Origin: Nitrososphaerales archaeon
GTDB taxonomy: Archaea > Thermoproteota > Nitrososphaeria > Nitrososphaerales > Gagatemarchaeaceae
Direction: 5' to 3'
Length of the DNA: 64,000 bases
Assembly (NCBI GenBank): GCA_032906765.1
Contig: JAJTZB010000001.1
Span: forward strand, 186,001-250,000
Position 1 is the stretch's first letter, and every line of letters begins with the position of its first letter. This document shows positions 10,504 through 39,324 of this stretch, in pieces. Under the pieces are notes generated by a model, which saw nothing but the letters and a program-made list of their open reading frames with translations, did not search any database and was not told the origin of the DNA. The translations under genes were made by a program, and so were the position numbers.

Positions 10504-10504
10504 G

Positions 10505-12537: not shown

Positions 12538-12546
12538 AACTCCTGG

Positions 12547-12861: not shown

Positions 12862-12884
12862 GCTTAGAGCCGCCCCTCGGAGGG

Positions 12885-14476: not shown

Positions 14477-14499
14477 GGCCCTTCTCTCTCAGCCCGGTT

Positions 14500-14805: not shown

Positions 14806-14828
14806 GCGACCTGACCGCCCCGAAGCTG

Positions 14829-22351: not shown

Positions 22352-22876
22352 CTACCCCTCCCCTCGTGAGAACCTCATTAGAACTTGGCCCTTGGTCACG
22401 CCTTCTCCCTCCTTCACAAGGACCTCCCTTACAGTGTGCTTGGCCTCAGCTCGGATGACTGATTCCATCTTCATCGACTCTATGACCAGGAGCGACTGAC
22501 CCTTATCCACTCCATCTCCTGCCTTCACGTCAACTGAGACAATCTTGCCGTAGAGCGGCGAGGTCAGCGCGTCCTTCTCTGTTGTTCCCTGTGGGGTCTC
22601 GTCAGAGCCTGCCGGACCGGTGAGCAGTTGAGCCTGTGCCCTGCCCACGGTCACCGGATTCCCGTTTATGCCTAACTTCAGGACTGCCTCCGTCTCATCT
22701 TCGAGCATCACCCTCAGCTCGTCATCGTCGAAGTGCGCAAGGAATTCGTTTGTGGTTCGCCCCTTCTCAAGCCGGACCGCGAACTTCTTCCCGTCGAAAG
22801 CGACGCCCAAGTCCTCTCCCTGCGGCGTCACTTCGACGTCGACCTTCCGGCTTCCGGCGTACAGCTCAAACTTCAT
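22352..22876 (-). CDS. Biotin carboxyl carrier protein of acyl-CoA carboxylase
   Basis: A 174-residue protein. The C-terminal biotinyl domain holds ESMKMES with the biotinylated Lys136; the first 90 residues form a beta-rich assembly domain (MKFELYAGSRKVDVEV). The linker is TSPLYGKIVSV where many proteins have APMPG. ATG 22876 is chosen; upstream the frame is Arg-rich and only shadows the biotin carboxylase gene. Its first 11 bases overlap the end of that gene. Confidence 0.93.
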   Translation of the reverse strand: MKFELYAGSRKVDVEVTPQGEDLGVAFDGKKFAVRLEKGRTTNEFLAHFDDDELRVMLEDETEAVLKLGINGNPVTVGRAQAQLLTGPAGSDETPQGTTEKDALTSPLYGKIVSVDVKAGDGVDKGQSLLVIESMKMESVIRAEAKHTVREVLVKEGEGVTKGQVLMRFSRGEG

Positions 22877-24392
22877 CGAAGAACCTCGCCTCTCGGTTCG
22901 TCGGAGGCAGCGCCCACCTCGACACTCCCTTCGTCTCGGTCTCGAGCTCGACGACTTTGTGGATGCCCTTCGCGAGCATCGCCGCCGCAATCACGAGCCC
23001 CTGATCCTCAAGTTGCTGCCTTTCAATCTCGGCTCTCTTTGCCATCTGCTCAACAATCCCCGTCCGTTCTATGAAGTCGGTGCCAAGGTCCCACTTCATG
23101 AAGGGCTCGCTCTGCAATAGAGTGGTGTGGAACGGGATCGTCGTCCTTATCCCTGTTATCGAAAACTCGGAGAGTGCGGCGACCATCCTCCGCCTGGCGT
23201 CCTCCAGGTCCTCTCCGCGTACGATAATCTTTGCAATCAGTGAATCGTAGAACTCTGGGATGACATAGCCGTCATACAGGGCAGTATCTACTCTGACGCC
23301 AGGACCTCCCGGCAGGTGCACGTGACCAATGGTACCGGCTGAGGGAGCGAAACCAGAGGCTGGATCCTCCGCGTTTATCCTGCATTCGATTGCCGCGCCG
23401 CTCCTCACTATGTCATTTTGGGCCAACGGAAGGCACCCCGTCGACGCGATGATTAGCTGCTGTCTGACGAGGTCCACCCCGGTCACCGCCTCCGTGACAG
23501 GGTGCTCGACTTGCAGCCTCGAGTTAACCTCCATGAAGTAGAAGTTGCCGTCTTTGTCCATGAGGAACTCGATAGTGCCTGCGTTCTCGTAGCCCACGGC
23601 CTTGGCCACCTTGACCGCGTATCCGCCCACCCGCTTCCTGATCTCCTCGGTGACAGCCGGGCTTGGGGTCAACTCGACGAGCTTCTGGTGCCTTCTCTGG
23701 ATGCTGCATTCCCTCTCGCCAAGATGGATTGCGTTGCCCTTGCCGTCGGCGAGAATCTGTATCTCTATGTGCCGCGCAGGCGCGATGAGTTTCTCTATGT
23801 ACATCCCCGCCCTTCCGAATGCACCTTTCGCCTCGTTTGTGGCGCGAGTAAAACCCTGCTTGAGTTCGTCTTCGCTTCTCACTTCCCTGATGCCTCTGCC
23901 GCCGCCTCCGTACGCCGACTTGAGCAGTATGGGGTAACCTATGGAATCGGCTATGCCCTTTGCTTCATCCACATCCTCGATTATCCTCTCGGTCCCCGGA
24001 GTCACGGGGACGCCCTGCGCCTTCGCCAGCCTCTTGGACTCGGTCTTGTTCCCAGTTGTCAGCAGTGTCTTCTCGGTTGGGCCGATGAACTTGATCCCCT
24101 CTTTCTCGCACGCGCCGGAGAACGTGGAGTTCTCTGCGAGGAATCCGTAGCCAGGGTGGACTCCTTCGGCGCCGCTCCGCTTGGCTATCGAGATGATCGA
24201 CGCTATGTTGAGGTAGCTGTCGGAAGGCGGCGGGGAACCGACGCGGTAAGCCTCATCGGCGAGCTTGACGTGCAGCGCGTCCCTGTCTGCGTCGGAGTAG
24301 ATGGCGACCGTGCTGACGCCCATCAGCCTGCACGCTCTGATGACCCTGACCGCTATCTCCCCCCTGTTTGCTATCAGGACCTTGTTGAACAT
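22866..24392 (-). CDS. accC: Acetyl/propionyl-CoA carboxylase, biotin carboxylase subunit
   Basis: A 508-residue ATP-grasp enzyme: MFNKVLIANRGEIAVRVIRA at the N-terminus, the glycine-rich ATP loop KSAYGGGGRGIREV, EIQILADGKGNAIHLGERECSIQRRHQK, and FYFMEVNSRLQVEHPVTE. It carboxylates biotin on the carrier protein. With the carboxyltransferase at 24402 it makes methylmalonyl-CoA (and possibly malonyl-CoA) as in archaeal bifunctional acetyl/propionyl-CoA carboxylases. Confidence 0.96.
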   Translation of the reverse strand: MFNKVLIANRGEIAVRVIRACRLMGVSTVAIYSDADRDALHVKLADEAYRVGSPPPSDSYLNIASIISIAKRSGAEGVHPGYGFLAENSTFSGACEKEGIKFIGPTEKTLLTTGNKTESKRLAKAQGVPVTPGTERIIEDVDEAKGIADSIGYPILLKSAYGGGGRGIREVRSEDELKQGFTRATNEAKGAFGRAGMYIEKLIAPARHIEIQILADGKGNAIHLGERECSIQRRHQKLVELTPSPAVTEEIRKRVGGYAVKVAKAVGYENAGTIEFLMDKDGNFYFMEVNSRLQVEHPVTEAVTGVDLVRQQLIIASTGCLPLAQNDIVRSGAAIECRINAEDPASGFAPSAGTIGHVHLPGGPGVRVDTALYDGYVIPEFYDSLIAKIIVRGEDLEDARRRMVAALSEFSITGIRTTIPFHTTLLQSEPFMKWDLGTDFIERTGIVEQMAKRAEIERQQLEDQGLVIAAAMLAKGIHKVVELETETKGVSRWALPPTNREARFFDEV

Positions 24393-24401
24393 GCGATCTC
24401 T

Positions 24402-25943
24402 TTACAACTGAATGTTTCCGTGCTTCTTATAGGGCCTGAACTCCCTCTTGTTTCTCAACGACCAGAGCGCCGACGCAAGCTTCGGCCTCGTTTCGGCCGG
24501 GTCGATGACTTCGTCTATTATCCCCCTCGCGGCTGCTGCGTACGGGTTGGCAAACTTCTCCCTGTATTCCCGAGTCAGCCTTTCTGCCATCGCCTCCCTG
24601 TCGCTGGCTGCAGCTATCTCCTTCCTGAAAATTACGTTGATGGCTTCCTCGGGCCCCATCACAGCTATTTCCGCTGTGGGCCAAGCGTAATTGAAGTCGG
24701 CCTTGCTGAACTTCGAGCCCATTGCGCAGTATGCGCCTCCGTAGGCTTTCCGGGTGATGATCGTGATTTTGGGGACGGTGGCCTCACAGTATGCGAAGAG
24801 AAGCTTTGAACCATGCTTGATTATGCCCTTCTGCTCTTCCTCCGCGCCTGGCATGTAACCAGGAACGTCGACGAACGTCACTATCGGCACGCTGAAAGAG
24901 TCGCAAAGCCTGACGAACCTCGCTGCCTTCACGGAGCTGAGACTGTCCAAGACGCCGGCGAGCACGAGTGGTTGGTTTGCCACTATGCCCACGGTATCGC
25001 CGTCGAGTCTGCCGAACCCCACTGTGACCGTCGTGGCGAAGTTTGCCTGCACCTCAAGATACTCCTCCTTGTCGAATACGCATTTGATGATGTCCCTCAT
25101 GTCGTAGGGTTTGCGCGGCTCTATAGGAACAATCTCCCGCAGACTCTCGGCTCTCCTCTCGATTGGGTCGTTGGTGTTGACATGGGGCGGAGCCACGGAG
25201 TTGTTCTCTGGCAGGTAGCTGAGTAGTCTCCTGATCAACGTAAAGCAGTCCTGCTCGTTCCTAGTAACGAAGTCAGCTACGCCGCTCTTCGCCGCATGAA
25301 TGTCGGCTCTGCCAAGGTCCTCGAAAGTGACGTTCTGGCCCAACGCAGCCTTGACAACGTCGGGCCCGGTGACGAACATCTGGCTGATTCCCTCCACCAT
25401 CACTGTGAAGTCGCCCAGGGCGGGGCCGTAGACTGCGCCACCGGCGCAGGGGCCTACAATCGCATTTATCTGGGGCACCACCCCGGAGGCCATGATGTTC
25501 CTGTAGAAGACCTCGCTGTACGCGGCGAGACTGAGCACCCCCTCCTGTATCCTGGCTCCCCCAGAATCGTTGATGCCTACGATGGGGGCCCCATTCTTTA
25601 GTGCAAGGTCCATCACCTTGTTGACCTTTCTGCCAAATGCCTCGCTGAGCGACCCCCCGAAGACAGTGAAGTCGTGGGCGAAGAGATAGACAAGTCTCCC
25701 GTTCACCTTTCCGTACCCAGTCACCACTCCGTCGCCTAGCGGATGGCTCTTGTCCATCATGAGATCAGTAGACCTGTGGGTGACAAACTTGTCAAGTTCG
25801 TGAAACGTCCCAGGGTCGAGCAGGTACTGGATTCTCTCCCTCGCGGTGAGCTTGCCCTTCTTGTGCTGGCTGTCAATCCTCTCCTGTCCGCCGCCCAGCT
25901 CCGCGAGCTTGTTGAGTTCGTTGAGTTTGTCAAGAAGGTCCAA
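24402..25943 (-). CDS. pccB: Propionyl-CoA carboxylase, carboxyltransferase subunit
   Basis: A 513-residue carboxyltransferase with two crotonase-like halves: GGSLSEAFGRKV and NDSGGARIQEGVLSL in the first, VDVPGYMPGAEEE, RKAYGGAYCAMGS and WPTAEIAVMGPEEA in the second. Ends in the usual KHGNIQL. It is first in a six-gene operon running to the epimerase. TTG start at 25943. Confidence 0.96.
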   Translation of the reverse strand: MDLLDKLNELNKLAELGGGQERIDSQHKKGKLTARERIQYLLDPGTFHELDKFVTHRSTDLMMDKSHPLGDGVVTGYGKVNGRLVYLFAHDFTVFGGSLSEAFGRKVNKVMDLALKNGAPIVGINDSGGARIQEGVLSLAAYSEVFYRNIMASGVVPQINAIVGPCAGGAVYGPALGDFTVMVEGISQMFVTGPDVVKAALGQNVTFEDLGRADIHAAKSGVADFVTRNEQDCFTLIRRLLSYLPENNSVAPPHVNTNDPIERRAESLREIVPIEPRKPYDMRDIIKCVFDKEEYLEVQANFATTVTVGFGRLDGDTVGIVANQPLVLAGVLDSLSSVKAARFVRLCDSFSVPIVTFVDVPGYMPGAEEEQKGIIKHGSKLLFAYCEATVPKITIITRKAYGGAYCAMGSKFSKADFNYAWPTAEIAVMGPEEAINVIFRKEIAAASDREAMAERLTREYREKFANPYAAAARGIIDEVIDPAETRPKLASALWSLRNKREFRPYKKHGNIQL

Positions 25944-26231: not shown

Positions 26232-28625
26232 TTGACAGAAGGTAGCGTCGGAAAGCCGGTACCACCGCAAGACGGAGTCCTCAAAGTAACAGGAACGGCG
26301 CTCTACACCTTCGACTGGCAGCTCCCAGGGATGCTTCACGCGAAACTCGCAACGAGCACGGTCCCTCACGCTAGAATCCTGAACATAGACACGAGGAGGG
26401 CAGAACAGGTTCCGGGCGTCGTCGCTGTCTTGACTGGGAAGGACATGCCTTTCAGAGTGGGCATGTACGCTGGCGACAGGGACCTTCTGGCTGTGGAGAA
26501 GGTGAGGTGGGTCGGCCATCCTGTGGCGCTTGTGGTCGCGGAGACTCTCGAAAGCGCTGAACGGGCCTCCGAGCTGGTCGACGTGGAGTATGAAGCTCTG
26601 CCAGCTGTCTTCGACCCGATCGAGGCCCTAAAGTCTGACGCGCCTCTGCTTCACGAGAGGATGGAGGAATACAAGCACGCGCCGGTGTTCTACCCGGTGC
26701 CGGGAACGAATATCGCGAACAGGTTCAAACTCGTCCACGGGGACGCAGAGAAGGCCTTCGAACAGGCAGACGAGATCCTGGAGGACCAGTTCAGAGTCTC
26801 CCACGTCAGCCACGCCTACATGGAGACTCAGAATGTTGTCGCCCAGTACAAGAGAGACGGAAGCCTCGAGATATGGTCGAGTTGCCAGTCCCCGTTCGTG
26901 GTCAGGCAGATAGTCTCAGAGTGCCTCAAAGTGCCGTACAACATGGTTGTCGTGAAGACACCCTTCGTAGGGGGAGGGTTCGGCGGGAAGGCAGGATTGG
27001 GGTGGGAGGCCTTGGTAGCGATGGCCTCGAAGGCAGTGGGATACAAACCAGTGAGACTGTGTCTGTCGAGGAGGGAGAATTTCGTGTCTTCCGCGTCCAG
27101 AGAGGGAGTTGTGGCCACAGTGAAGGCCGGGTTCAAGAAGGATGGGAAGTGCGTCGCATACAAGGTGAGGTTCGTGCTCGACGCTGGGGCTTATGCGGAC
27201 TACACAGTGAACGTCTCCAGGGCAATGGGCTATTGTGCCGAAGGGGTCTATGAGATACCGAACGTCTACTGCGAGTCCCTGGCAGTATACACAAACAAGA
27301 CTCCGACCACAGCCTTGAGAGGCTTCGGGTATCCGGAGAGCAACTGGGTGCTCGAGCAGGTGTTCGAGAGAGTGGCGAAGAAACTTGGGATGGATTCTGC
27401 GAGGATAAGAAGGATAAACCTGCTCAGGCCCGGCGAGTCGGAGACAGCAACTGGTGAGAGCCTGAGAGAGGACGTAGGCGACCCGAGGAAGGTGCTCCAG
27501 GTGGTTCTGGATGAGTTGAAGTGGGACGAGAAGCTGCCGCCTTCGAGCCCGTGGAAGGTGAGGACGAAAGGATTCGCGCTATGCTTGAAGGGACCGTCGC
27601 AGCCGCCAAACGCCTCATCGTCCGCGATAGTCAAGTTCAACGAAGATGCGACGATTGACCTCAGCGTGGGAACAGGGAACTTCGGGCAGGGCACTCCTAC
27701 AGCGCTGTCCCAGCTCGTCGCGGACCAGTTCGGCGTTCCTGTGGAGAAGGTTCGGGTGGACATGCTGAGGGACACGAGCAAGACCGCGTACACCTGGCAG
27801 ACAGTCGGGAGCAGGGGATTCTTCGCAGACGGAGTCTCTTCCCTGCGTGCCTGCGAAGACGCGAAGAAACAGATACTCGACCTCGCGTCGCAGGTGCTGA
27901 GGCTACCGGTGGAAGAGCTGGAACTGGCGGATGGGATGGTGAAGGCGAAGGGAAGACCTACGCTCACTCTCCCGCTGAAGGACCTTGTATTCGGCTACGT
28001 CTACCCGAACGGAAACACGATTGGAGGCCCTGTAATCGGGCGAGGCCGTTATGTATCAAGCCTGAACACATTCCTAGACCCCAACACTGGTCAGGGAGTG
28101 CCCACAATCTTCCATACCTTCGGTGGGACAGGAGTCGAAATCGAGCTGGACCTGATAACAGGCGTGATAGAGGTGCAGAAGGCCATCTCTGTGTTCGACG
28201 TCGGGAAGGCCATCAACCCTCTCCTGCTCAAGATGCAGCTTAGCGGTGGCTTCGTGATGGGGATGAGCATCGCCCTGTTCGAGAAGATGAAGTTCGACGA
28301 GCAGGGATGGGTCACAAACCCCAACTTCACTAGCTACTACATAGCCAGAATGAAGGACGTTCCCAAGGAGTTCGTAGCGAGGTTCGTGGAGACGCCGCAA
28401 CTGGATGGTCCCTTGGGAGCGAGGGGGATTGGAGAGTTGAGCATGATCTCTGTGGCTTCCGCCATCTCGAACGCAATCTTCGACGCCATCGGGGTGAAGC
28501 TGAACGACCTGCCCATGAGTCCAGAGGTCGTCTGGGCGGCGATAAGCCAACAGAGACCTGACCTGATTAAGGGCGCCATGGAGAGCTACGCGAAGGTCGG
28601 GGTCCCGAAGATGGTCTCGCAATGA
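26232..28625 (+). CDS. Molybdenum hydroxylase large (catalytic) subunit, XDH/CoxL-like
   Basis: A 797-residue molybdopterin-binding subunit. The Moco region VGGGFGGK is at residues 246-253; the active-site loop reads TALRGFGYPES, the xanthine/aldehyde dehydrogenase type, not the AYxCSFR loop of true form I CO dehydrogenase. The C-terminal catalytic Glu is in GARGIGELSM. So this is a hydroxylase of unknown substrate; a purine or other N-heterocycle would suit the neighbouring transporter and allFGH-like genes, as inference. It is cotranscribed with the M and S subunits (ATGA overlap at 28622). Confidence 0.92.
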   Translation: MTEGSVGKPVPPQDGVLKVTGTALYTFDWQLPGMLHAKLATSTVPHARILNIDTRRAEQVPGVVAVLTGKDMPFRVGMYAGDRDLLAVEKVRWVGHPVALVVAETLESAERASELVDVEYEALPAVFDPIEALKSDAPLLHERMEEYKHAPVFYPVPGTNIANRFKLVHGDAEKAFEQADEILEDQFRVSHVSHAYMETQNVVAQYKRDGSLEIWSSCQSPFVVRQIVSECLKVPYNMVVVKTPFVGGGFGGKAGLGWEALVAMASKAVGYKPVRLCLSRRENFVSSASREGVVATVKAGFKKDGKCVAYKVRFVLDAGAYADYTVNVSRAMGYCAEGVYEIPNVYCESLAVYTNKTPTTALRGFGYPESNWVLEQVFERVAKKLGMDSARIRRINLLRPGESETATGESLREDVGDPRKVLQVVLDELKWDEKLPPSSPWKVRTKGFALCLKGPSQPPNASSSAIVKFNEDATIDLSVGTGNFGQGTPTALSQLVADQFGVPVEKVRVDMLRDTSKTAYTWQTVGSRGFFADGVSSLRACEDAKKQILDLASQVLRLPVEELELADGMVKAKGRPTLTLPLKDLVFGYVYPNGNTIGGPVIGRGRYVSSLNTFLDPNTGQGVPTIFHTFGGTGVEIELDLITGVIEVQKAISVFDVGKAINPLLLKMQLSGGFVMGMSIALFEKMKFDEQGWVTNPNFTSYYIARMKDVPKEFVARFVETPQLDGPLGARGIGELSMISVASAISNAIFDAIGVKLNDLPMSPEVVWAAISQQRPDLIKGAMESYAKVGVPKMVSQ

Positions 28626-29497
28626 GCTTTGGTTCACCGTATCTGACCCTCCCTGACTTCACGTACCACAGAGCTTCAACCGTGGAGGAGGTCATAGCCC
28701 TTCTGAAGGAACATGGGGACGAAGCAAAGGTCATGGCGGGCGGAGTCGGCCTGATTGCTTTCATGAAGGAGAGGCTGATGTCCCCCGCTCACATCATAGA
28801 CGTCAAGGGAGTAGAGGAACTCAGGCAGCTCAGGTACGCTCCCGGTAAGGGCCTCAGTGTCGGCGCGTCCGTGACTTACGAAGAACTGGCCTCCAGCGAG
28901 GTTCTGAAGGAGAAGTACACGGTTCTTCACGAGGCTGTGTCTAGGACGGGCGACCCGATGATCAGGGCGCGAGCAACTTTGGTCGGAAACGTTTGCGAGG
29001 CGATACCGTGGATAGACAGCGCTCCCGCGCTGATATCGCTCGACGCGTCTGTGGAGATAGCAGGCGCCAGAGGGAAGCGGACAGTGCCCGTGGCAGGGTT
29101 CATCAGAGGGCCGGTGGACATCGACCTAGAGTCGGACGAATTCGTCACAGGCATACAAATCCCAGATGCCGTTCGCGGTACGAGGGGGGCGTTCGAGAAG
29201 TTCACTGGAGGCTCAGAGTTCGCAGTCGCGAGCGTGGCGGTGACCCTGGCGAGCGAGAACAAGCGGAGGAGGGCGAGGGTCGTCTTCGGGTCGGTGAACT
29301 CGACCCCGGTCCGCTGCACGGAGGCCGAGAAGGCGCTCGAGGAAGGGGAGTTCACGCAGGCGACAATCAGGAGGGCTGCGAAGGTCGCAGCCGAAAGCGT
29401 GGAGTGCGTCAGCGACGTACTCGCCAGCTCGGAGTACAGGAAGCACCTTGTCGAGGTGGTGACACTGCAGGCGCTCTGGAGGCTGCTCCAGAATTGA
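28622..29497 (+). CDS. Molybdenum hydroxylase FAD-binding subunit, second copy
   Basis: A 291-residue FAD subunit. The flavin motifs are more diverged than in the copy at 71: AGGVGLIAF replaces AGGQSLIPL and ATLVGNVCEAIP replaces TIGGNVSHADP, so a Gly-Gly of the second motif is lost. ATG overlaps the large-subunit stop, and its own stop overlaps the TTG of the 2Fe-2S subunit. Flavin affinity or substrate path may differ. Confidence 0.88.
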   Translation: MSFGSPYLTLPDFTYHRASTVEEVIALLKEHGDEAKVMAGGVGLIAFMKERLMSPAHIIDVKGVEELRQLRYAPGKGLSVGASVTYEELASSEVLKEKYTVLHEAVSRTGDPMIRARATLVGNVCEAIPWIDSAPALISLDASVEIAGARGKRTVPVAGFIRGPVDIDLESDEFVTGIQIPDAVRGTRGAFEKFTGGSEFAVASVAVTLASENKRRRARVVFGSVNSTPVRCTEAEKALEEGEFTQATIRRAAKVAAESVECVSDVLASSEYRKHLVEVVTLQALWRLLQN

Positions 29498-29997
29498 ACG
29501 AGTGCGTGGTGAAGGTCAACGGGCAGACGAGGAGAGAGAGGGTAAAGGACAACGTGCTCCTTCTCGACTTCCTCAGGGACAAGCTGGAGGTCAGGAGCGT
29601 GAAGGCGGCTTGCTGGAGAGGCGAGTGCGGCCTCTGCACCGTCCTGTTGAACGGCAAGCTCGTGAAGTCGTGCATAGTGCTCGCGGTCGAGGCGAACGGA
29701 GGAGAGGTCACGACCGTCGAAGGAATCACGGACGGAAGTAAGCTCGCCCCCATCCAGCAGGCCTTCGTGGAGCATGGAGCGAGCCAGTGCGGGTTCTGCA
29801 CCCCGGCCTTCGTGCTCACATGTCATGAGCTACTGAAGCACAATCCGAGGCCAACGGAGAGGGAGGTAGAGGAGGCGGTGAGCGGCCTGGTGTGCAGGTG
29901 CGGCACGTACGCCCAGATCAGGGAGGCGATAGCGTCGGTGTCACAGCCCCCCACAAGGGCAGAAGCCCTACAGAAGCTTGGAAAGGGCGTCAGATAG
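29494..29997 (+). CDS. Molybdenum hydroxylase 2Fe-2S subunit, second copy
   Basis: A 167-residue iron-sulfur subunit with Cys40, 45, 48, 60 and Cys99, 102, 134, 136. TTG at 29494 overlaps the preceding stop (TTGA), exactly as in the first cluster; the much longer open frame upstream is only a shadow of the FAD gene. The second-cluster motif ends CRCGTY instead of CRCTGY. The last 30 bases overlap a convergent 58-residue ORF. Confidence 0.92.
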   Translation: MNECVVKVNGQTRRERVKDNVLLLDFLRDKLEVRSVKAACWRGECGLCTVLLNGKLVKSCIVLAVEANGGEVTTVEGITDGSKLAPIQQAFVEHGASQCGFCTPAFVLTCHELLKHNPRPTEREVEEAVSGLVCRCGTYAQIREAIASVSQPPTRAEALQKLGKGVR

Positions 29998-30144
29998 CTT
30001 CTTTTCCAGCTTGGGCGCCTGCTGAAGTTCGAGCTGCGCGCACTTCACCTTCTGGTCCTGCAGAGCCTGCCTGAAGATGTCGAGTCCTAGGTTGAGGACC
30101 ACGAGATCGGAGGTCAGAAGTTGCGCGTCCTTGTCAGCCTTCAC
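29968..30144 (-). CDS. 58-residue ORF coupled to FdrA/AllF
   Basis: A short frame of 58 codons beginning GTG, in +1 register over the last 11 bases of the FdrA gene, hence likely translationally coupled. The product contains DLVVLNLGLDIFRQALQDQ followed by a Lys-rich helix ending LSDALSKLL. The pattern V(I/L)N(I/L)GL..F...L..Q.V resembles a small segment I associate from memory with FdrA/DUF1116 gene sets, where it occurs as a tiny ORF or domain; that link needs a profile search. No catalytic residues are evident, so a structural role in a carbamoyltransferase complex is a guess. Confidence 0.6.
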   Translation of the reverse strand: MKADKDAQLLTSDLVVLNLGLDIFRQALQDQKVKCAQLELQQAPKLEKKLSDALSKLL

Positions 30145-31759
30145 CGAGCAATCCCTCCCACTTTGCCTTCAAAGAAGCGGAAGCCTTGGCCCCGCCCACC
30201 ACGAGGGCAGAGGCGATTGCCATCTGCGCGTTGGTGGGGAAGAGGACAACGCCTGCCTTCGAGAGCTTCTCGCTCTGTTCCGAAAGCGACTGCGGGTCCG
30301 ATTCCGTGCCGCAGACGTGCGCCATCACGATAAGCTCCCTCCGGTTCTTCTTCGCCTCACGCTTCGCCTCTGCAATAGCTCCGATAAGCGAGCCGCCAGG
30401 GTCGGGGGAAGACCCGTATCCTAGGACGACGTCCAGCATGATTTCAGCAACTGACGGGTCCTTCGCCTCCTCGAGGATGCGGAGCCGCCTGACTGTGGAG
30501 TCGATCATGGGATGAGGCCTGCCGGCTGTGAAGAACTCGTCCCCCAAGTCGAGGATTGTGTTCCTCCTGCTCTTTGTCGGGTCGGCGAGCGCATAACGGT
30601 CGGAGAGGGGCGTGTTGCTGTACGCTTCCCCCAACAGTTCCCGGAAGATGAGGAGAGTCTCGTGGGCGAGGGTCCCCCCGCTATACAGCCCGCGGACGTG
30701 GCGCTGGCCAGAGGCGAGGCCTGTCGAGAGGTCTCTGGACATCCTGGCAAGCTTGTCAAAGCTCATGGAGACCTTTCCCTTGAACTGCTTGGTGGCCTCC
30801 CTTCCAGAAATCGACGTGGCAGCAGATGCTGCCGAATGCAACGTCTTCCGGTACTGGATTCTCCCCTTCGGCTTACCCAGCGAATCCAGGCCGAGGAAAC
30901 ACGCTATCACAGGTTTCCGAACGCTCTTGTCGACGAATCCCATGACCCCTCGCATCACCTTCTCCGTCGGAGTCTTCGCAACTATCATCACGACCTTCGT
31001 GCCCTTGTCCTTCTCGAGCAGACCAAGGCACCTCTTCATCATCAGGCCACCTATCTCATTTGAGACGTCCGAACCCCCCACTCCCAGCCCCTGCGACACG
31101 CCCAGACCGACCCTGTCGAGGAGGACCGACACTTCCTGGAGACCAGTCCCAGCTGAGGCAACAATCCCTATTCCTCCTCTCCTAACCGCGTTGGCGAATC
31201 CCAGGCCGACACCGTTGATGATAGAGGTCCCCGCCCCCGGCCCAAGAACGAGCAATCCGTTCGAGCTCGCATACTCCTTGAGCTTCGCCTCCTCCTCCCG
31301 GGACACGTGGTCGCTGAAGAGGTGGACGTTGATTCCACTCCTGAGGAGCTCCATGGACGGCTCGAAGGCTTGTTTTCCCGGAACCGAGACTATCGCGAGG
31401 TTTGCCCCAGGCAGGTGCTCTACTGCCGAGGCGATGCTGTGGTATGTCTCGAAACCCGAGCTCTGGACGCCCGATGCCGAAGGAGGGGACATGACCAGCT
31501 GCTGCACCTTCCCCATCACCTCCTCTCCATTGGAACCCGGCGAAACACTGATGGCTAGAACCAGGTCGCCGTCGCCTGCGCTTTTCCCCTCCGACCCAAG
31601 AAGCCCGAGCTGCTGTAGGAGACGCCTGTTCGTGTCCGTACCCATCGCGACGACAGCGTCGACGACTCCAGGCACCTTCTTCGCCTCCTCTGTCAGGCGC
31701 ATGAGTTGAATCGAATCCCGGAAGAAGTTGCGCTTGACAACGTTGAGGACGGGCATCAT
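30134..31759 (-). CDS. allF: FdrA-family protein (oxamate carbamoyltransferase AllF-like subunit)
   Basis: A 541-residue member of the FdrA family, which has succinyl-CoA-synthetase-like CoA-binding and ligase folds. The Rossmann part includes LVLGPGAGTSIINGVGLGFAN and GIVASAGTGLQEVSVLL; a His-containing loop with GVGGSDVSNEIGG follows. In E. coli AllF (formerly FdrA), AllG (YlbE) and AllH (YlbF) together make oxamate carbamoyltransferase. AllG- and AllH-like genes lie immediately divergent here, so the same reaction (oxamate + carbamoyl phosphate from oxalurate, or the reverse) is the best prediction. Length is close to the bacterial protein (about 555). Confidence 0.85.
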   Translation of the reverse strand: MMPVLNVVKRNFFRDSIQLMRLTEEAKKVPGVVDAVVAMGTDTNRRLLQQLGLLGSEGKSAGDGDLVLAISVSPGSNGEEVMGKVQQLVMSPPSASGVQSSGFETYHSIASAVEHLPGANLAIVSVPGKQAFEPSMELLRSGINVHLFSDHVSREEEAKLKEYASSNGLLVLGPGAGTSIINGVGLGFANAVRRGGIGIVASAGTGLQEVSVLLDRVGLGVSQGLGVGGSDVSNEIGGLMMKRCLGLLEKDKGTKVVMIVAKTPTEKVMRGVMGFVDKSVRKPVIACFLGLDSLGKPKGRIQYRKTLHSAASAATSISGREATKQFKGKVSMSFDKLARMSRDLSTGLASGQRHVRGLYSGGTLAHETLLIFRELLGEAYSNTPLSDRYALADPTKSRRNTILDLGDEFFTAGRPHPMIDSTVRRLRILEEAKDPSVAEIMLDVVLGYGSSPDPGGSLIGAIAEAKREAKKNRRELIVMAHVCGTESDPQSLSEQSEKLSKAGVVLFPTNAQMAIASALVVGGAKASASLKAKWEGLLGEG

Positions 31760-31870
31760 TGGTCGCGACCTCCGTGATTGTGATAAACATTGTCCCGAAT
31801 CCCTTGCCCTAGAAACGAACGTCGCTCTGCAACCACACGCCTACGGCCGAAACCGAAGCAGTTAGCTGGA

Positions 31871-31880
31871 AACCTTTTAA
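31871..31880 (+). promoter_or_regulatory. Box A for the allG-allH-like operon
   Basis: AACCTTTTAA, about 37 bases before TTG 31913. It sits in the 153-base divergent gap shared with the FdrA gene. Confidence 0.45.
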
Positions 31881-31912
31881 CAACCAAACGAGGTTAGAGA
31901 TTCGGAGATAAC

Positions 31913-33178
31913 TTGACTCTGTCGAAGGAAGTGGTCGAACAGGCGAACGCTGAAGCTGTCAATAGGATGATGGACTCTGATCCTGTCTGGGTCGACATCG
32001 CCCCAGCCAGGGAGAAGATCCGAGGAATGAAGAAGACGATGCTCCACGCCGGCCCACCTGTGGCTTGGAAAGAAGCGAGCGGGCCACTCAGGGGGGCAAT
32101 AATCGGGGCCGCAATCTACGAGGGATGGGCGGAGGACGAGAAGGCAGCGACAAAGTTGGCAGTTGAGGGTGAGATAGAGCTGGACTGCGACCACCACAGG
32201 GACGCTGTGGGACCCATGGCGGGAGTGATCTCGCCCAGCATGCCCGTCTTCGAGCTCGTGGACAGGAAGTACGGGACCAAGACCTATTCGAACATGAACG
32301 AGGGGATAGGCAAGGTCCTAAGGTATGGGGCGTTCAGCAAGGACGTCCTCGACAGACTCAGATGGATGTCGGAGATAGTCGCGCCCGTCTTCAAAGCCAC
32401 CGTGAAGGAACTCGTCAAAGACGGCGGTGGCCTCGCGATCAAGCCGATGATAGCCCAGGCGCTCACAATGGGCGATGACTGCCACAACAGGTACATCGCC
32501 ACGACTTCGCTCTTCGCGAAGCAGATCGCACAATACATTGTAAGGACCGGCTTCGACTCAAAGACCTTGTCAGAGGTGAGCAAGTTCATTGACGCGAACA
32601 ACTTCACGATGTTGAACATGGGAATGGCAGCGGCCAAGGCCATGACACTCGCCGGGCATAACGTGAAGTACAGCACAATCGTGACAGTCATGTCGAGGAA
32701 CGGGACGGACGCCGGGATTTGGGTGAGTTCGCTGGGAAACAGATGGTTCACAGCCAAGGCCCCGATTCCCAAAGGCCTCTGGTTCCCCGGCTTCTCCGAC
32801 GCCGACGCAAACCCAGACATAGGCGACAGCGCCATAACCGAGACCGCGGGCTTCGGCGGTTTCGCCATGGCCGCAGCGCCTGCGATCGTCTCGTGGGTTG
32901 GAGGGAGCGTGCAGGCAGCCCTGGACGTCACGAACAGGATGTACGAGATAACCCAGGCAGAGCACAGGCACTTCCAGATTCCGTTCCTCAACTTCAGAGG
33001 AACTCCGGTTGGAATCGACCTCAGGAAAGTGCTGAAGACCGGAATCGCGCCCACGATTAACACCGGGATTGCCCACAAGAAGGCTGGTGTAGGGCAGATA
33101 GGCGCTGGAACGATCACGTTCCCCATGCAAGCCTTCAAGGATGCATTCGCTGCTTACGTGGACAAATACGGAGTATGA
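31913..33178 (+). CDS. allG: DUF1116 protein (AllG/YlbE-like)
   Basis: A 421-residue protein, nearly the same length as E. coli YlbE. Recognisable blocks: WVDIAPAREKIRGM, LLHAGPPVAWKEASGPLRGA, IYEGWAEDE, CDHHRDAVGPMAGVIS and NMNEGIGKVLRYGA. These match the DUF1116 N-terminal region closely. It is predicted to be part of the oxamate carbamoyltransferase complex. Its stop overlaps the start of the DUF2877 gene. Confidence 0.9.
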   Translation: MTLSKEVVEQANAEAVNRMMDSDPVWVDIAPAREKIRGMKKTMLHAGPPVAWKEASGPLRGAIIGAAIYEGWAEDEKAATKLAVEGEIELDCDHHRDAVGPMAGVISPSMPVFELVDRKYGTKTYSNMNEGIGKVLRYGAFSKDVLDRLRWMSEIVAPVFKATVKELVKDGGGLAIKPMIAQALTMGDDCHNRYIATTSLFAKQIAQYIVRTGFDSKTLSEVSKFIDANNFTMLNMGMAAAKAMTLAGHNVKYSTIVTVMSRNGTDAGIWVSSLGNRWFTAKAPIPKGLWFPGFSDADANPDIGDSAITETAGFGGFAMAAAPAIVSWVGGSVQAALDVTNRMYEITQAEHRHFQIPFLNFRGTPVGIDLRKVLKTGIAPTINTGIAHKKAGVGQIGAGTITFPMQAFKDAFAAYVDKYGV

Positions 33179-34071
33179 TCCTGAAGGTCACTGACATCGG
33201 AGAACTGGTCCTCAAACAGAGGTCGCGGGCGAGGGAGGGCACTGTGAGGCGCGTCTTCCACAGCTCTGCGTACGTCGAGACATCAGAAGGTCTCATCCTG
33301 CTGCTTCATGGCGGCCTCAGGTCGCCCATGACGGTGAACCTCGACCCTGGAGAGAACCCGGAAGGCGTCTTGTCGGCAGGCGACGCCTTTCACTTCAGGG
33401 GCGCCACAATCAAGGTCGGAGAGCTGTCGCTGGTCTTGGAGGGGGCAAAGGTGTTCCGCAGCAGTCTGAGAAGGAGAGCGCCGTTCAGACCAATAGCAGC
33501 CAAGGAACTTGTTAGGGGAGCGGTCATGCTAAGGCTGCTCTACAACGTCTCTTCTCCTGCGTTGGACCTTGTTGGAGACAGGTCCTTCAAGAAGTTCGTC
33601 CGCTCTGTTCTCCTGCCGGTTGCGGGCGGTCGGTTGAGCGGGGCATACCTCCCCGACAACTACTTCGCCCTCATAGGCCTCGGGAGCGGGTTCACGCCGG
33701 CCGGAGATGACTTCGTAAGCGGATTCACAGCTGCGTTCAACTATGTGGCCAGGCGGACAGGAGCCAAACTGATAGCGCTCCCGATGTCTGAGCTGCTTCG
33801 CAGGACGGTGCCAGAGAGCGCGACTATCCTTGGATACGCCCAGAACGGGTACGTGGACGAGGACCTCGAGAAGCTAATCCTCTCGGCCGCAGGCGCCAGG
33901 CAAGGGAAGTTCACCGATCAGTTGTTGGAAGTCGCCAGGCGCGGCCACACCTCTGGCATCGACATGTCGTCGGGCGTCGTTCTTTCTGTGGCTGCAGTCA
34001 GGGACGGAATCGAGCACGATGGCGCACTTGAGAGCGTCCTGCTAGCCCTAACTGGTTCGCGAACACTTTAA
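33175..34071 (+). CDS. allH: DUF2877 protein (AllH/YlbF-like)
   Basis: A 298-residue protein with the DUF2877 signature: LIGLGSGFTPAGDDFVSGFTAAFN near residue 165 and a C-terminal GHTSGIDMSSGVVLSV. The GxGxTPxGDD element is conserved across the family and is probably catalytic or phosphate-binding. Together with the neighbouring AllG-like and AllF-like proteins it completes the three-subunit set. ATG overlaps the preceding stop (ATGA). Confidence 0.88.
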   Translation: MILKVTDIGELVLKQRSRAREGTVRRVFHSSAYVETSEGLILLLHGGLRSPMTVNLDPGENPEGVLSAGDAFHFRGATIKVGELSLVLEGAKVFRSSLRRRAPFRPIAAKELVRGAVMLRLLYNVSSPALDLVGDRSFKKFVRSVLLPVAGGRLSGAYLPDNYFALIGLGSGFTPAGDDFVSGFTAAFNYVARRTGAKLIALPMSELLRRTVPESATILGYAQNGYVDEDLEKLILSAAGARQGKFTDQLLEVARRGHTSGIDMSSGVVLSVAAVRDGIEHDGALESVLLALTGSRTL

Positions 34072-34099: not shown

Positions 34100-35641
34100 T
34101 TGGAAGTGGCAAAGAACGAAGAGGTCGTCCTCGAGACTGTCAAGCTTGTCAAGAGATTCGGAGACCTGGTTGCAGTCAACGACGTGAACTTTAGGCTCAG
34201 GAAGGGGGAAATCCACGCGCTACTCGGAGAGAACGGCGCAGGTAAGTCCACTCTATGCAACGTCCTGTACGGCTACTACAAGGCAGACGGTGGAGAGGTG
34301 ATTCTCAAGGGGAAGCCGGTGAGGTTCTCTTCTCCTAAAGACGGCATTAAGGCAGGAATCGGCATGGTCCACCAGGACCTGATGCTCATACCCAACATGA
34401 CTGTGGCCCAGAACTTGAGCCTGATGACAGACCTGAACCTGAAGAAACCAGTGCTGGACCTCAAAGACGTCAAGAGCAAGTTGGCAGGGATGGAGGAGGC
34501 ATACGGCCTTTCAGTAGATCCAGAGGCCTTCGTCGAGAATCTCTCGGTCGGCGAAAGGCAGAGGGTCGAGATACTGAAGTGCCTCTTCATTGGCGCGGAC
34601 ATACTCCTCTTCGACGAACCCACAAGCCACCTGACTGAAATAGAAACGGAGAAGCTCTTCGAGAACCTGAAGAGGATGGCGGGGGAAGGCAAGTCCATCG
34701 TGTTCGTCACTCACAGGGTGGACGAGGTCCTAGAGGTGGCGGACAGGATAACAGTGATGAAATTGGGGAAGGTCGTATCAGAGAACAAGAGGAGCGAGGT
34801 GACGCGGGACACGATGGCGATGCTCATAGTGGGTAGGGAAGTGTTGTACAACGTCACGAAGATCCCGACTCAAATCGGCAAACCTGTCCTTCAGCTGGTT
34901 GACGTTTCAGCGGACGGCGATCTGGGCAGACGCGCGGTGCGCGACGCTTCCTTCGAGCTCAGGGCTGGCGAGATCCTCGGAGTCGCTGGCGTCGCGGGAA
35001 ACGGACAGAGGGAGTTGGACGAGGTGATTACCGGCATGAGAAAGGTTGCCTCCGGCAAGATTCTATTGGATGGCAAGGACATTACTAACGAGACGCCAGA
35101 CGAGGCCAGAAGGGTGGGGGTTGCACATGTGTGCGAGGAGCACAAGACTGGATTCGTCTTCGATTTCAGTCTGAAAGACAACCTGATACTGTCGCCCTTC
35201 TTGGCAGAGAAGTTCACTCGCGGACTGTTTTTGGACGACGGGAAGGTGAGGGAGAAGACAAAGGAGCTGCTCAAGGAGTTCAATGTAGTTGCTGGTTCGG
35301 AGAATGACGAGCTAAGAACGCTGAGCGGGGGCAACAGACAGAAGTTCCTGCTCGCGAGAGAGCTCTTCTGGGGACCTAGGGTAATCGTTGCGAACAACCC
35401 CACAAAGGGACTGGACATATCGGCGGCGGAATACATCAGGAACGTGCTGGAGAAGATCAAGGCTGAGGGGAAGGGAATCCTGATGATCTCCACCGACTTC
35501 GACGAGATACTTGACATGAGTGATAGGATTGCTGTGATGAATCAGGGTAAAGTAGTGCGTGTCGTCGACGCAAAGGATGCGGACATCCATGAACTCGCCA
35601 CACTCATGACTACGACCTCCCATGTCGCGACGAGCGGCTAG
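34100..35641 (+). CDS. BMP-type nucleoside/ureide ABC transporter, double ATPase
   Basis: A 513-residue protein with two ABC cassettes. First cassette: Walker A GENGAGKST (about residue 48), signature LSVGERQRVEI, Walker B ILLFDEP. Second cassette: Walker A GVAGNGQRELD is degenerate, signature LSGGNRQKFLLA, Walker B VIVANNPTKGLD. This asymmetry is normal for RbsA/BmpC-type sugar and nucleoside importers. It serves the two permeases and the binding lipoprotein encoded on the opposite strand at 35638-38835. TTG start at 34100; GTG 34106 is possible. Confidence 0.93.
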   Translation: MEVAKNEEVVLETVKLVKRFGDLVAVNDVNFRLRKGEIHALLGENGAGKSTLCNVLYGYYKADGGEVILKGKPVRFSSPKDGIKAGIGMVHQDLMLIPNMTVAQNLSLMTDLNLKKPVLDLKDVKSKLAGMEEAYGLSVDPEAFVENLSVGERQRVEILKCLFIGADILLFDEPTSHLTEIETEKLFENLKRMAGEGKSIVFVTHRVDEVLEVADRITVMKLGKVVSENKRSEVTRDTMAMLIVGREVLYNVTKIPTQIGKPVLQLVDVSADGDLGRRAVRDASFELRAGEILGVAGVAGNGQRELDEVITGMRKVASGKILLDGKDITNETPDEARRVGVAHVCEEHKTGFVFDFSLKDNLILSPFLAEKFTRGLFLDDGKVREKTKELLKEFNVVAGSENDELRTLSGGNRQKFLLARELFWGPRVIVANNPTKGLDISAAEYIRNVLEKIKAEGKGILMISTDFDEILDMSDRIAVMNQGKVVRVVDAKDADIHELATLMTTTSHVATSG

Positions 35642-36573
35642 CCTTTCCTGTACGGTTTCAGCAGGTACTTCGGAAACCTCGCCTTCCTGCCGAGAATAGG
35701 AATCAGCGCAAGGAGAAAGACGTACGGCAGCATGTTGAAGAGCTGTGAACTCCCTGCCGTTGCGATGCCAGAAATACTCACGAACTCTGACTGGGCCGCG
35801 TACACAATGTTGAAGGAGATTGCCGCAAACAACGTCTTGAACGGCCCCCAATTCGCAAGGTAAATCATGGCGAGTGCTATGAAGCCCCTGCCTGCAATTA
35901 TGTCGAACTGGAACGACTGAAGGAAACCGATTTCAAAGTAGGCACCGGCCAAGCCAGCCAGCATTGCTCCGAGGAGAACGGCCAGGAATCTGACCTTCAG
36001 AACATTGACGCCCATGTTGTCGGCCGCCTTCGGGTTCTCGCCGACCGCCCTCACTCTGAGCCCCAAGGATGTCCGGCCAAGGAAGAAGGAGATTACAATT
36101 ACCAGAGCAAGAGCGAAGTATACGAGCGGGTTCTGTTGGAAGAGCACCCTCCCGACGATCGGAATATCACTCAGGAATGGGATGTAGATGTTCGGAATAT
36201 TATGTGTGAGTGAAGCGCCGCCGCCTGCGAAGCTGCTGTAGAGGACGAACGACAAGCCCAGACCAAACAGGTAAACGGCTAACCCAAGGACTATTTGGTC
36301 CAGGCGCAGACGAACGGTGAGATACGCGAAGATGGCTCCAATTAGCCCCGCAACAGCAAGGGCAGCCAGTATCCCCAACCATGGATTCCCGGTTGTGAAG
36401 TCGACTGCTAGGGTCGTGAATGCAGCCATAAGCATGATGCCCTCAATACCCATGTTCGCCACCCCTGACTTTTCCGCCACAATCTCGCCCATACCGGCAA
36501 AAATGTAGAGGGGGGAAAGCTGTAGAGTTGTGGAGAATATCCCTATGAGAACGTTCGTCAGGAGGTCCGTCAT
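35638..36573 (-). CDS. BMP-type ABC transporter permease 2
   Basis: A 311-residue permease of the BPD_transp_2 family with about eight to ten hydrophobic helices; EIVAEKSGVANMGIEGIMLM and RTSLGLRVRAVGENPKAADNMGVNV are family hallmarks (the second is the cytoplasmic coupling loop). Its end overlaps the convergent ATPase gene by four bases. It follows the other permease with a four-base overlap. Confidence 0.93.
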   Translation of the reverse strand: MTDLLTNVLIGIFSTTLQLSPLYIFAGMGEIVAEKSGVANMGIEGIMLMAAFTTLAVDFTTGNPWLGILAALAVAGLIGAIFAYLTVRLRLDQIVLGLAVYLFGLGLSFVLYSSFAGGGASLTHNIPNIYIPFLSDIPIVGRVLFQQNPLVYFALALVIVISFFLGRTSLGLRVRAVGENPKAADNMGVNVLKVRFLAVLLGAMLAGLAGAYFEIGFLQSFQFDIIAGRGFIALAMIYLANWGPFKTLFAAISFNIVYAAQSEFVSISGIATAGSSQLFNMLPYVFLLALIPILGRKARFPKYLLKPYRKG

Positions 36574-37580
36574 GTCCTCGTCCTCCTCTCAGTCAAGTAG
36601 GCGCTGAGAAGGAGTCCTATCATTATGACTCCTTCCATCGCAAAGACGACCGAAGTTGTCACATTAGATTGAAGGGCCATGGCCTCCGCCCCTATAGTGA
36701 TGTAGGCGAAGAAGATTGAGGCGAAGCCTATCCCTATCATGTGTTTCCGTCCTACCAGCGCTGCGATGACCGCAATGAAACCGAAGTTTGTCCCGAACGA
36801 ACCAGCGTCAAGGTGGTACAAGTATCCCAATTGAAACGTCGCTCCCGCTAGTCCGGCGAGGGCACCGGCCACCAACATGGTGGTAATCATCACCCGTTGT
36901 ATGCTAATCCCCGCGTACTTCGCCGTTTCAGCGCTTTCCCCGACGGTGTTCGCCTTTATTCGAAACGACGTCCGCTCGACCAAGAAGTAAAGTAGGATTC
37001 CGATGGCAACCGTAAAGGGTACAGCGTAGGTGATAGGCGTCCCGCTGACAATATTGGGAATCCGGAACTGCGGGACGAGTGTAGCGGTGTAAGGATAACC
37101 ACCGGACTGACCGCTCTTGATTGGCCCGTTGAGCATGTAATAACCAAAGTTCGAGGCAACGACGTTCAGAAGTAGCGTCACAACGATCTCGTTGGCTCCG
37201 AATCTGACTCTCAAGACTGCTGGAACAACGATCCAAAGGAGCCCGCCCAAGGTCGCGAGGAGTATCATCGAGAGATAGAGAAGAGGCCAAGGAAGAAACG
37301 CCATGTAGGTGTACGCGACAAAGACCATGACCATTCCGACTACCAGCTGACCTTGCGCTCCGATGTTCCAGAGACCCGCCTTCAGGGCGAACCCGATTCC
37401 CATCGCCATCGTGTAGAACACGACAAACCTGACGAAAATCTGCTGGACCCCACTGGACGTCGTGATAGGATTCAGAAAAAGAGTGGACAGGGCGACTTCG
37501 ACGTTACCGCCGGCATACGCCACCACCGCCAGCCCGGCTATCACGCCGAGCCCAATGGCGATGGCGTTGTACGCCGTCAC
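36570..37580 (-). CDS. BMP-type ABC transporter permease 1
   Basis: A permease of about 336 residues: FALKAGLWNIGAQGQLVVG, VTLLLNVVASNFGYYML, and coupling loop RTSFRIKANTVGESAETAKYAGI. Around ten hydrophobic helices. The frame is open to 37688, but that would overlap the binding-protein gene by 70 bases and add a non-hydrophobic Gln/His-rich lead; GTG 37580 gives MTAYNAIAIGLGV. The start is uncertain by about 35 codons. Confidence 0.9.
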   Translation of the reverse strand: MTAYNAIAIGLGVIAGLAVVAYAGGNVEVALSTLFLNPITTSSGVQQIFVRFVVFYTMAMGIGFALKAGLWNIGAQGQLVVGMVMVFVAYTYMAFLPWPLLYLSMILLATLGGLLWIVVPAVLRVRFGANEIVVTLLLNVVASNFGYYMLNGPIKSGQSGGYPYTATLVPQFRIPNIVSGTPITYAVPFTVAIGILLYFLVERTSFRIKANTVGESAETAKYAGISIQRVMITTMLVAGALAGLAGATFQLGYLYHLDAGSFGTNFGFIAVIAALVGRKHMIGIGFASIFFAYITIGAEAMALQSNVTTSVVFAMEGVIMIGLLLSAYLTERRTRT

Positions 37581-37617
37581 GCGTAGCCATCGAAGGCCCT
37601 GTATGTCGCTCGCACCC

Positions 37618-38835
37618 TTATGGTAGGCTTGATACTGGTGGCAGATAGCTGAATTGAGCCGCCGCAGTTGCAAGGCTCGTGTCCGCACAGCCGGCGTTAG
37701 TGGGATTGTCGAAGCAGAACGGGTTCCCTGTTGATGGGTTGGTCTTGAAGTACATGACTATTGAACCCAGAGTGATGTCGGTCTGTAACGCGTGTCCCGC
37801 TGCCTTCACGTTGGCTGGGAGGTTGGGTCCGGGTTGCACCTGGACTATCCCTGACTGCATGTTGGCAGTAACGAAGCCCCAGGACCAGTTGTGTGTCACG
37901 TAGTCAATCATTGCTTTGTTGTATAGTGCGGCCCAGTTGACGACAATCGAACCCAACAGGATTCTGTTGTTCGTGGGGGCAACGGCTGTCAAGTTCGTGT
38001 AGACATTGGTTGCCCACACCTGGCTTGTTGTTGGTTGTGCCATCGCTGCTCCGAGCACTCCGACGTCGATTCCGTCTCCAGACGAGAAGACGACATCCGC
38101 ACCGTTGGTGTAGTCGTTGGTTGCGTCAGTTTGGGCTCCGGCCGAGTCCGCCCAGGCGAACGCCTCGAACTTGTTGTAGAAGGTCGGAGAGGTGGAGGAA
38201 GTGTACAGAACACCGGCTTTGAAGCCTTCGTGACCACCCCAAATCGATGGGACGAAGCCGCCACCTATGAGGCCGAATTTGGCAGTGTGGCTGATCATGC
38301 CTGCCATCGCTCCAAGGACGAATCCGCCTCCACTGATGTCCAACCAAATCCTGTAGACGTTGGAGGCGTTGGCTGCCAAACAGTCAACGCAGACGAATAG
38401 TGTCTTTGGATACTGAGGAGCTATTGTGCTCGCCATGACCTGATACTGGATTCCTTGCAGGAAGATCACGCCATAGCCTTGGGACGCCCATTGCTGGGCG
38501 ACCGGCTGCGCGTCTGTACCTGAAACCTTGTTCTCAGAGAAGCTGAGTGTGAAACCGTACTGAGATTGAAGCGTCTTCAGTTCGTGTTCAGCTTGATAGT
38601 TCCACGAATTGTCCGCTGGTGTGATAGGTTCTATCAACCCAACCTTGAGGGCCGCTAGAGCGCCTGCAACGGCAGTGCCTTGCGCTGTGGTCGTGACCGT
38701 ATTGGTGACTGTGCTGGTTGCGCCAGCAGAGGGATAGAGGAAGGCGTATCCTGCAACGCCGAGTAGGATGATGATGACGACGATTAAAGCACTTACGAGC
38801 GCTGTTATTCCATTTCTTTTCTTTACTTGCATCAT
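37618..38835 (-). CDS. BMP-family substrate-binding protein
   Basis: A 405-residue membrane-anchored binding protein. The first 35 residues are Lys/Arg then a hydrophobic helix (ALIVVIIILLGVAGYAFL), followed by a Thr-rich linker typical of archaeal solute-binding proteins. The mature domain shows the BMP/PnrA pattern: ALKVGLIEPITPADNSWNYQAEHEL, YGVIFLQGIQYQ and GGGFVLGAMAGMISHT. Family members bind purine nucleosides or related N-rich compounds. It is first in the transporter operon and has a strong box A. Confidence 0.92.
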   Translation of the reverse strand: MMQVKKRNGITALVSALIVVIIILLGVAGYAFLYPSAGATSTVTNTVTTTAQGTAVAGALAALKVGLIEPITPADNSWNYQAEHELKTLQSQYGFTLSFSENKVSGTDAQPVAQQWASQGYGVIFLQGIQYQVMASTIAPQYPKTLFVCVDCLAANASNVYRIWLDISGGGFVLGAMAGMISHTAKFGLIGGGFVPSIWGGHEGFKAGVLYTSSTSPTFYNKFEAFAWADSAGAQTDATNDYTNGADVVFSSGDGIDVGVLGAAMAQPTTSQVWATNVYTNLTAVAPTNNRILLGSIVVNWAALYNKAMIDYVTHNWSWGFVTANMQSGIVQVQPGPNLPANVKAAGHALQTDITLGSIVMYFKTNPSTGNPFCFDNPTNAGCADTSLATAAAQFSYLPPVSSLP

Positions 38836-38886: not shown

Positions 38887-39324
38887 TCAGCTAAGCTTCG
38901 TCTTGACGCAATCGAACATCTGAGTCACAATCTTCTTGATGTTCCCTTCGATCAGTGGCTTGGCAAGACTTCCTAGGGGGCCGTTGATGTTGACGTCTGC
39001 CTTCCAGCTCAGCTCGGACTCGGAGCCAACTTCTGCGATGCCGAGGTTGACCACAGCGCTGAAGCCGCTTCCTGCACCGGAGCCCGACAGTTCCAGGGTT
39101 GCTGTGTAAGAGTCGTGGTCCTCTTTGACCACCTTGCTCGTTGCCTGGAAGTTGCCCCTGATGAACCCAATCGCGACCTTGACAGTAGCGGCGATCCGCT
39201 TGTTCTCGCCGACCGTGAAGTTCTGCAGCCCGGGGACGCACTGGATTATCTTCGTCGGGTCGGAGACGAAGTTCCAGACCTTCTCGCGGTTGCTGGGCAT
39301 TTTGAACTTTCCTTCAAGAAGCAT
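38887..39324 (-). CDS. CoxG-like SRPBCC protein, copy 3
   Basis: A 145-residue SRPBCC/CoxG protein (MLLEGKFKMPSNREKVWNFVSDPTKIIQCVPGLQNF). It matches CoxG closely and lies 9 kb from the L-M-S operon, next to the transporter genes, so it could serve that Mo hydroxylase. It has its own promoter. Confidence 0.85.
   Translation of the reverse strand: MLLEGKFKMPSNREKVWNFVSDPTKIIQCVPGLQNFTVGENKRIAATVKVAIGFIRGNFQATSKVVKEDHDSYTATLELSGSGAGSGFSAVVNLGIAEVGSESELSWKADVNINGPLGSLAKPLIEGNIKKIVTQMFDCVKTKLS

Follow-up and report, generated by a model that had tools for sequence, protein, structure and literature searches.

The window analysed here, 64,000 nucleotides of a Nitrososphaerales archaeon, carries a conserved gene module in which homologs of AllF, AllG and AllH, together with a detached C-terminal tail of AllF, are accompanied by a three-subunit Mo hydroxylase and a cyclase-family metal hydrolase. 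Synteny gives high confidence in the module as such, with no substrate named. That it serves the catabolism of an N-heterocycle, most likely a pyrimidine, is the preferred reading, and a tentative one. The full scheme, ATP-conserving oxidative pyrimidine degradation in Nitrososphaeria and Chloroflexota, in which the four-gene AllF–tail–AllG–AllH set would phosphorolyse ureido(methyl)malonate to carbamoyl phosphate, is put forward with still more reserve. The genes that enter the argument are the following (position in the window, strand, product).

18172–18912, plus: GNAT-like paralog, 41% identical to the protein of 39425–40153; adjoins MoS in relatives
19008–19448, plus: methylmalonyl-CoA mutase small (B12-binding) subunit (PF02310, 90 bits)
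19871–21427, minus: methylmalonyl-CoA mutase large subunit, named from sequence; homologs near the cluster in relatives
21424–22350, minus: MeaB/ArgK-type GTPase, named from sequence
22352–25943, minus: acyl-CoA carboxylase genes (biotin carrier, AccC, PccB), named from sequence; PccB-like genes beside the cluster in relatives
26232–28625, plus: Mo hydroxylase large subunit, MoL (PF02738/PF20256); same clade as the relatives' gene
28622–29497, plus: Mo hydroxylase FAD subunit, MoM (PF00941/PF03450)
29506–29997, plus: Mo hydroxylase FeS subunit, MoS, with an inferred start codon; its 3' end runs into that of the tail gene on the opposite strand; homologs beside MoM in relatives
29968–30144, minus: AllF C-terminal tail as a gene of its own, 58 residues, GTG start
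30134–31759, minus: AllF (FdrA family) without its tail, 541 residues (PF00549/PF02629, PRK06091, PDB 3dmy)
31913–33178, plus: AllG (DUF1116), 421 residues (PF06545, PDB 3clq, tree)
33175–34071, plus: AllH (DUF2877), 298 residues (PF11392)
34100–35641, plus: ABC ATPase of a BMP-type transporter (PF00005)
35638–36573, minus: ABC permease (PF02653)
36570–37688, minus: ABC permease (PF02653)
37618–38835, minus: BMP/PnrA-like binding protein (PF02608)
38887–39324, minus: CoxG-like protein, a frequent Mo hydroxylase partner (PF06240)
39425–40153, plus: conserved protein, GNAT fold predicted; no Pfam family even at E 1
40328–41137, plus: cyclase-family metal hydrolase (PF04199, 131 bits), proposed ring opener
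61523–62569, plus: carbamate kinase (TIGR00746, 405.8 bits against an equivalog cut-off of 358)

In E. coli, AllFGH interconverts oxamate plus carbamoyl phosphate and oxalurate plus phosphate (PMC11326118), and this one known function of the family dates from 2024. Homologs of all three subunits, whose joint presence marks this oxamic transcarbamylase, are encoded together in the window, and the AllF C-terminal tail, another of its marks, is present as a separate ORF. Each of the three proteins aligns along its length with its E. coli counterpart, and AllG is 45% identical to E. coli AllG, with conserved blocks common to both. AllG and AllH score 281.5 bits (cut-off 27) and 72.6 bits (cut-off 25) against their Pfam families. 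AllF contains the Pfam CoA-binding and CoA-ligase domains (Ligase_CoA, 98 bits) and matches the NCBIfam FdrA profile PRK06091 with 411 bits, slightly below its cut-off of 433; the final 62 profile positions find no counterpart, since the tail is encoded apart. In the Protein Data Bank, AllF matches FdrA (3dmy, E 5e-67) and AllG matches 3clq (E 2e-107). The coordinates and lengths that the first-pass annotation gave for these three genes are exact, their families are confirmed by Pfam and NCBIfam, and family searches likewise recover the BMP ABC transporter, Mo hydroxylase, cyclase-family hydrolase and carbamate kinase that it had placed in the window.

The 58-residue ORF, initially listed as a small fourth ORF, is a true gene. 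It shares 11 nucleotides with the end of the AllF frame and aligns with residues 500–554 of E. coli AllF, the part missing from the 541-residue protein, although the match to this single sequence is weak when taken alone (E 0.002). A profile built from ten seeds detects the tail at 41 of the 42 AllF loci; no tail is detected by it in L161. E. coli and Chloroflexota carry the tail as part of AllF. A gene of its own encodes it in the window and its archaeal relatives, in AOA and in a Clostridium, and it is joined to the N-terminus of AllG in one family of archaea (f22), at a single Chloroflexota locus (L166) and on two enterobacterial plasmids; L017 is ambiguous in this respect. Between close relatives, the separate tail has a pN/pS of 0.27–0.45, compared with 0.27–0.36 for AllF and 0.15–0.21 for AllG. 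Since it occupies the same place in relatives and has a pN/pS like that of AllF, the ORF encodes a conserved product and is not a chance reading frame. Judged by homology, it provides the C-terminal domain of AllF in trans. Because the tail can be fused to either AllF or AllG, it probably lies between the two. A movable tail of this kind points to an AllF–AllG contact and should guide structural work on how AllFGH assembles.

Within a sample of 400 Nitrososphaeria genomes, 35 gave an AllG match. The AllGs of the window type (type 1) form one clade of 11 entries (100/100), apart from the AllGs of AOA, family f22 and E. coli, and from YahG. Synteny was counted in the eight genomes with a window-type AllG and enough sequence (the window, G029, G033, G001, G071, G065, G049 and G057), which represent three families. 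A separate tail and a three-subunit Mo hydroxylase near AllF–tail–AllG are found in all eight, the cyclase-family hydrolase in seven, and methylmalonyl-CoA mutase lies nearby in six; the mutase is also present on a short contig of G074. In G049 (L070), the genome with no cyclase in its stretch, a dihydropyrimidinase is located directly beside MoL. Gene orders differ between the families, and carbamate kinase, the BMP transporter and CoxG are found at the cluster only in the window's own family. Carbamate kinase is 27 kb away from AllH in the window and adjoins MoL in three relatives. AllH was not detected beside AllG in L069 and L070.

Three AOA-type loci (L080, L082 and L087) carry AllF, a separate tail, AllH, carbamate kinase and AllG beside a BMP-type transporter, with no Mo hydroxylase or cyclase within the stretch read. 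The window itself contains another Mo hydroxylase set with CoxG at its left edge (41–1925, together with L145 8637–11937); the tree places its large subunit, which has a long branch, with the Chloroflexota type. A mandelate-racemase-like protein, a HAD protein, an aconitase X pair and an aldehyde dehydrogenase are encoded at 52372–58604, and this set recurs near the cluster in G033 and G001 (L033, L035). At 58954–60981 on the minus strand, the domain of an NAD-dependent epimerase is split by ~370 residues resembling an intein, which start with CHDAR, end with SGN before SS, and give weak LAGLIDADG_3 and HINT matches.

The core of the module extends beyond the archaea. A Caldilineaceae cyclase query matched 99 of the 298 genomes of its class, some only via a more distant paralog, and 18 Chloroflexota loci of the close cyclase group were examined. 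Fourteen of them carry AllG and Mo genes, L162 carries Mo genes without AllG, and neither was found in the stretch examined at L151, L152 and L154. The cyclase of the window is ~60% identical to that of Chloroflexota locus L029, and has kynurenine formamidase and isatin hydrolase as relatives in the Protein Data Bank; a structure predicted for the cyclase was of low quality (pLDDT 60). The Chloroflexota Mo large subunits fall into a clade apart from the archaeal ones, with only ~30% identity between the two; being of another lineage, they indicate that the hydroxylation step accompanies the core in two independent forms. Conservation of the neighbourhood, the lack of which would by the first-pass annotation's own criterion have spoken against its reading, is thus seen for the set in several archaeal families and for the core in Chloroflexota.

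Several partner genes in these loci bear on the substrate. A dihydropyrimidinase lies beside the Mo genes in L070 and L029 (529 and 614 bits, cut-off 393), and a dihydropyrimidinase-type gene plus a CN-hydrolase accompany the module in five Chloroflexota loci (L029, L157, L159, L162 and L164). An NCS2 permease in two of the 18 Chloroflexota loci, L155 and L161, is closest to E. coli RutG and shares its Glu (YGEN vs YAEN), at a position occupied by Gln in the xanthine carrier XanQ and the urate carrier UacT. In L015 and L034, an amidase, a CoA-transferase and an MmdA-like carboxyltransferase adjoin the cyclase.

From the observed gene families, synteny and tail we infer every substrate of the following route. 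The BMP-type ABC transporter would import nucleosides or bases. The Mo hydroxylase, aided by CoxG, would convert uracil or thymine to barbiturate or 5-methylbarbiturate, and the cyclase-family metal hydrolase would open the ring to ureidomalonate or ureidomethylmalonate, which are acylureas like oxalurate and one or two carbons larger. The AllF–tail–AllG–AllH set, identified by homology, would phosphorolyse the acylurea to (methyl)malonamate and carbamoyl phosphate, by the reaction that the E. coli enzyme carries out on oxalurate, and the carbamate kinase, of well-established family, would use the latter and ADP to produce ATP, NH3 and CO2. The remaining acid would be deamidated and activated to (methyl)malonyl-CoA, and, as adjacency suggests, enter metabolism via methylmalonyl-CoA mutase or acyl-CoA carboxylase. 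Such a route would account for the Mo hydroxylase, the ring opener, the carbamate kinase, the methylmalonyl-CoA mutase and the amidase, CoA-transferase and MmdA-like genes of relatives. The RutG-like permease and the dihydropyrimidinase beside Mo genes also speak for a pyrimidine; both are found in relatives, outside the window, and the permease comes from two closely related genomes.

Other points make this scheme less secure. Central carbon metabolism in Nitrososphaeria also makes use of methylmalonyl-CoA mutase and acyl-CoA carboxylase, so their adjacency may have another reason. The only amidase-signature protein of the genome may be GatA rather than the proposed malonamate amidase. The 27 kb between AllH and carbamate kinase in the window, and the lack of an AllH beside AllG in L069 and L070, also weigh against the scheme. 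The idea of the first-pass annotation that the window encodes uptake and opening of an N-rich ring or ureide with ATP recovery fares well with respect to the conserved transporter, Mo hydroxylase, ring opener, AllFGH and carbamate kinase set; its description of the pathway as archaeal was too narrow, since the core is shared with Chloroflexota.

Elsewhere in the genome, contig C5 carries a second ureide-type locus (L142, C5:108001–128000, positions 181–14806 therein). It encodes a PucD-like xanthine dehydrogenase, an SsnA-like aminohydrolase, a dihydropyrimidinase/hydantoinase (TIGR02033, 498.6 bits against 393), a deaminase-like protein, a knotted carbamoyltransferase that shares 30% identity with YgeW, and a carbamate kinase spread over two ORFs, possibly owing to a frameshift. 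The locus resembles a reductive uricolytic set, here in an archaeon. Allantoinase-type genes, which the first reading had called absent, are indeed missing from the window, but not from the genome, given the C5 dihydropyrimidinase/hydantoinase, and a relative has such a gene beside its Mo hydroxylase. Of the reductive pyrimidine pathway, the dihydropyrimidinase is present on C5; a query with PreA, its dihydropyrimidine dehydrogenase, gave only a 33% partial match (query residues 6–321 of 411) to a 366-residue frame that would fit PyrD. Neither PF09663 (barbiturase, AtzD family) nor an archaeal AmoA query matched the genome, but in both cases the control was silent as well, so we count neither as absent.

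The same module logic may apply to another ring or ureide, such as a hydantoin or imidazolone derivative, a product of purine breakdown, a triazine or a biuret-type acylurea, a possibility that we consider somewhat doubtful. AllFGHK does occur with varied ring openers and partners: a Klebsiella plasmid carries it beside an AtzD-family ring-opening amidohydrolase, which suggests more than one upstream route, an E. coli plasmid carries it with a cysteine hydrolase and a cytosine permease, and biuret genes accompany it in AOA and comammox (PMC12625717). Plasmid matches in Rhodococcus, Methylocystis and Vibrio showed no comparable neighbourhood. Hydantoinase-family enzymes lie near the module, and the dihydropyrimidinase and CN-hydrolase pair also fits hydantoins. 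The archaeal and Chloroflexota Mo hydroxylases, being of different lineages, could act on different rings. A purine role, however, would fall to the C5 locus with its xanthine dehydrogenase, knotted carbamoyltransferase, SsnA-like protein and hydantoinase.

A true oxamate carbamoyltransferase, which would convert oxalurate, either imported or formed by the cyclase from the five-membered ring of parabanate, to oxamate and carbamoyl phosphate, is rather unlikely. It would have the only characterised activity of the AllFGH family (PMC11326118), oxalurate use has already been proposed for archaeal allFGHK, that of soil AOA included (PMC12625717), and both the resemblance of AllG to the E. coli protein and the presence of carbamate kinase agree with it. 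Yet AllD (PF02615) has no match in the whole genome, although the E. coli control matched, which makes the E. coli oxalurate route doubtful in this archaeon; for this reason the activity name given in the first-pass annotation is unsupported as written. Furthermore, the type-1 AllG clade is separate from E. coli AllG, and the E. coli route has no use for the conserved Mo hydroxylase, cyclase and methylmalonyl-CoA genes. Nor would one expect hydantoin to be turned into parabanate by a Mo hydroxylase, as this would involve an sp3 carbon.

The CoA-binding and CoA-ligase domains of AllF and the CoA-ester genes nearby could suggest that it is an acyl-CoA ligase feeding methylmalonyl-CoA mutase with no carbamoyl chemistry, but this is highly improbable, as transcarbamylase activity was demonstrated for E. 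coli AllFGH (PMC11326118) and AllF travels with AllG, and often with AllH and carbamate kinase. Just as improbable is a chance gathering of unrelated catabolic genes around AllFGH: gene orders vary between families and only the window's own family has the BMP transporter and carbamate kinase adjacent to the set, but the Mo hydroxylase and cyclase recur across three archaeal families and in most of the Chloroflexota loci.

An archaeal AllFGH set as such is not new: a published study describes allFGHK from AOA, and together with bmpA-nupABC from a non-AOA Nitrososphaerales MAG, and interprets it as serving oxalurate use (PMC12625717). The main text of that paper does not mention a cyclase, Mo enzymes or barbiturate. 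In the open-access literature, to which the search was confined (subscription papers were outside its scope), we found no paper on the module and nothing relevant linking barbiturate, ureidomalonate or malonamate to carbamoyl phosphate. That the AllFGH core is associated, in two groups far apart, with a ring hydroxylase and a ring opener suggests a more general role in harvesting carbamoyl phosphate from acylureas, and oxidative pyrimidine breakdown would offer the family a concrete substrate that can be tested.

The oxidative pyrimidine pathway of Rhodococcus consists of uracil/thymine dehydrogenase, barbiturase and ureidomalonase. The proposed archaeal route would share with it the oxidation of the ring and its opening to an acylurea; it would differ in employing a cyclase-family ring opener and in phosphorolysing the acylurea with ATP recovery instead of hydrolysing it to urea. 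The reductive uricolytic set of E. coli and Clostridium (YgeW, SsnA, HyuA; PMC12990295) similarly combines ring opening, a carbamoyltransferase and carbamate kinase, but its carbamoyltransferase family is unrelated to AllFGH, and the archaeon has a similar set on contig C5. Compared to E. coli AllFGH and AllK (PMC11326118), the three subunits are homologous over their length, and the AllF tail and carbamate kinase are present, whereas the tail is a separate gene, AllD is absent, AllG belongs to another clade, and a Mo hydroxylase, a cyclase, a BMP transporter and methylmalonyl-CoA genes are added around the core. The allFGHK and bmpA-nupABC loci of AOA and non-AOA Nitrososphaerales (PMC12625717) have the BMP-type transporter in common with the window, and the AOA tail is also separate; unlike the window, the AOA loci lack a nearby Mo hydroxylase or cyclase, and the AOA AllG belongs to a clade of its own.
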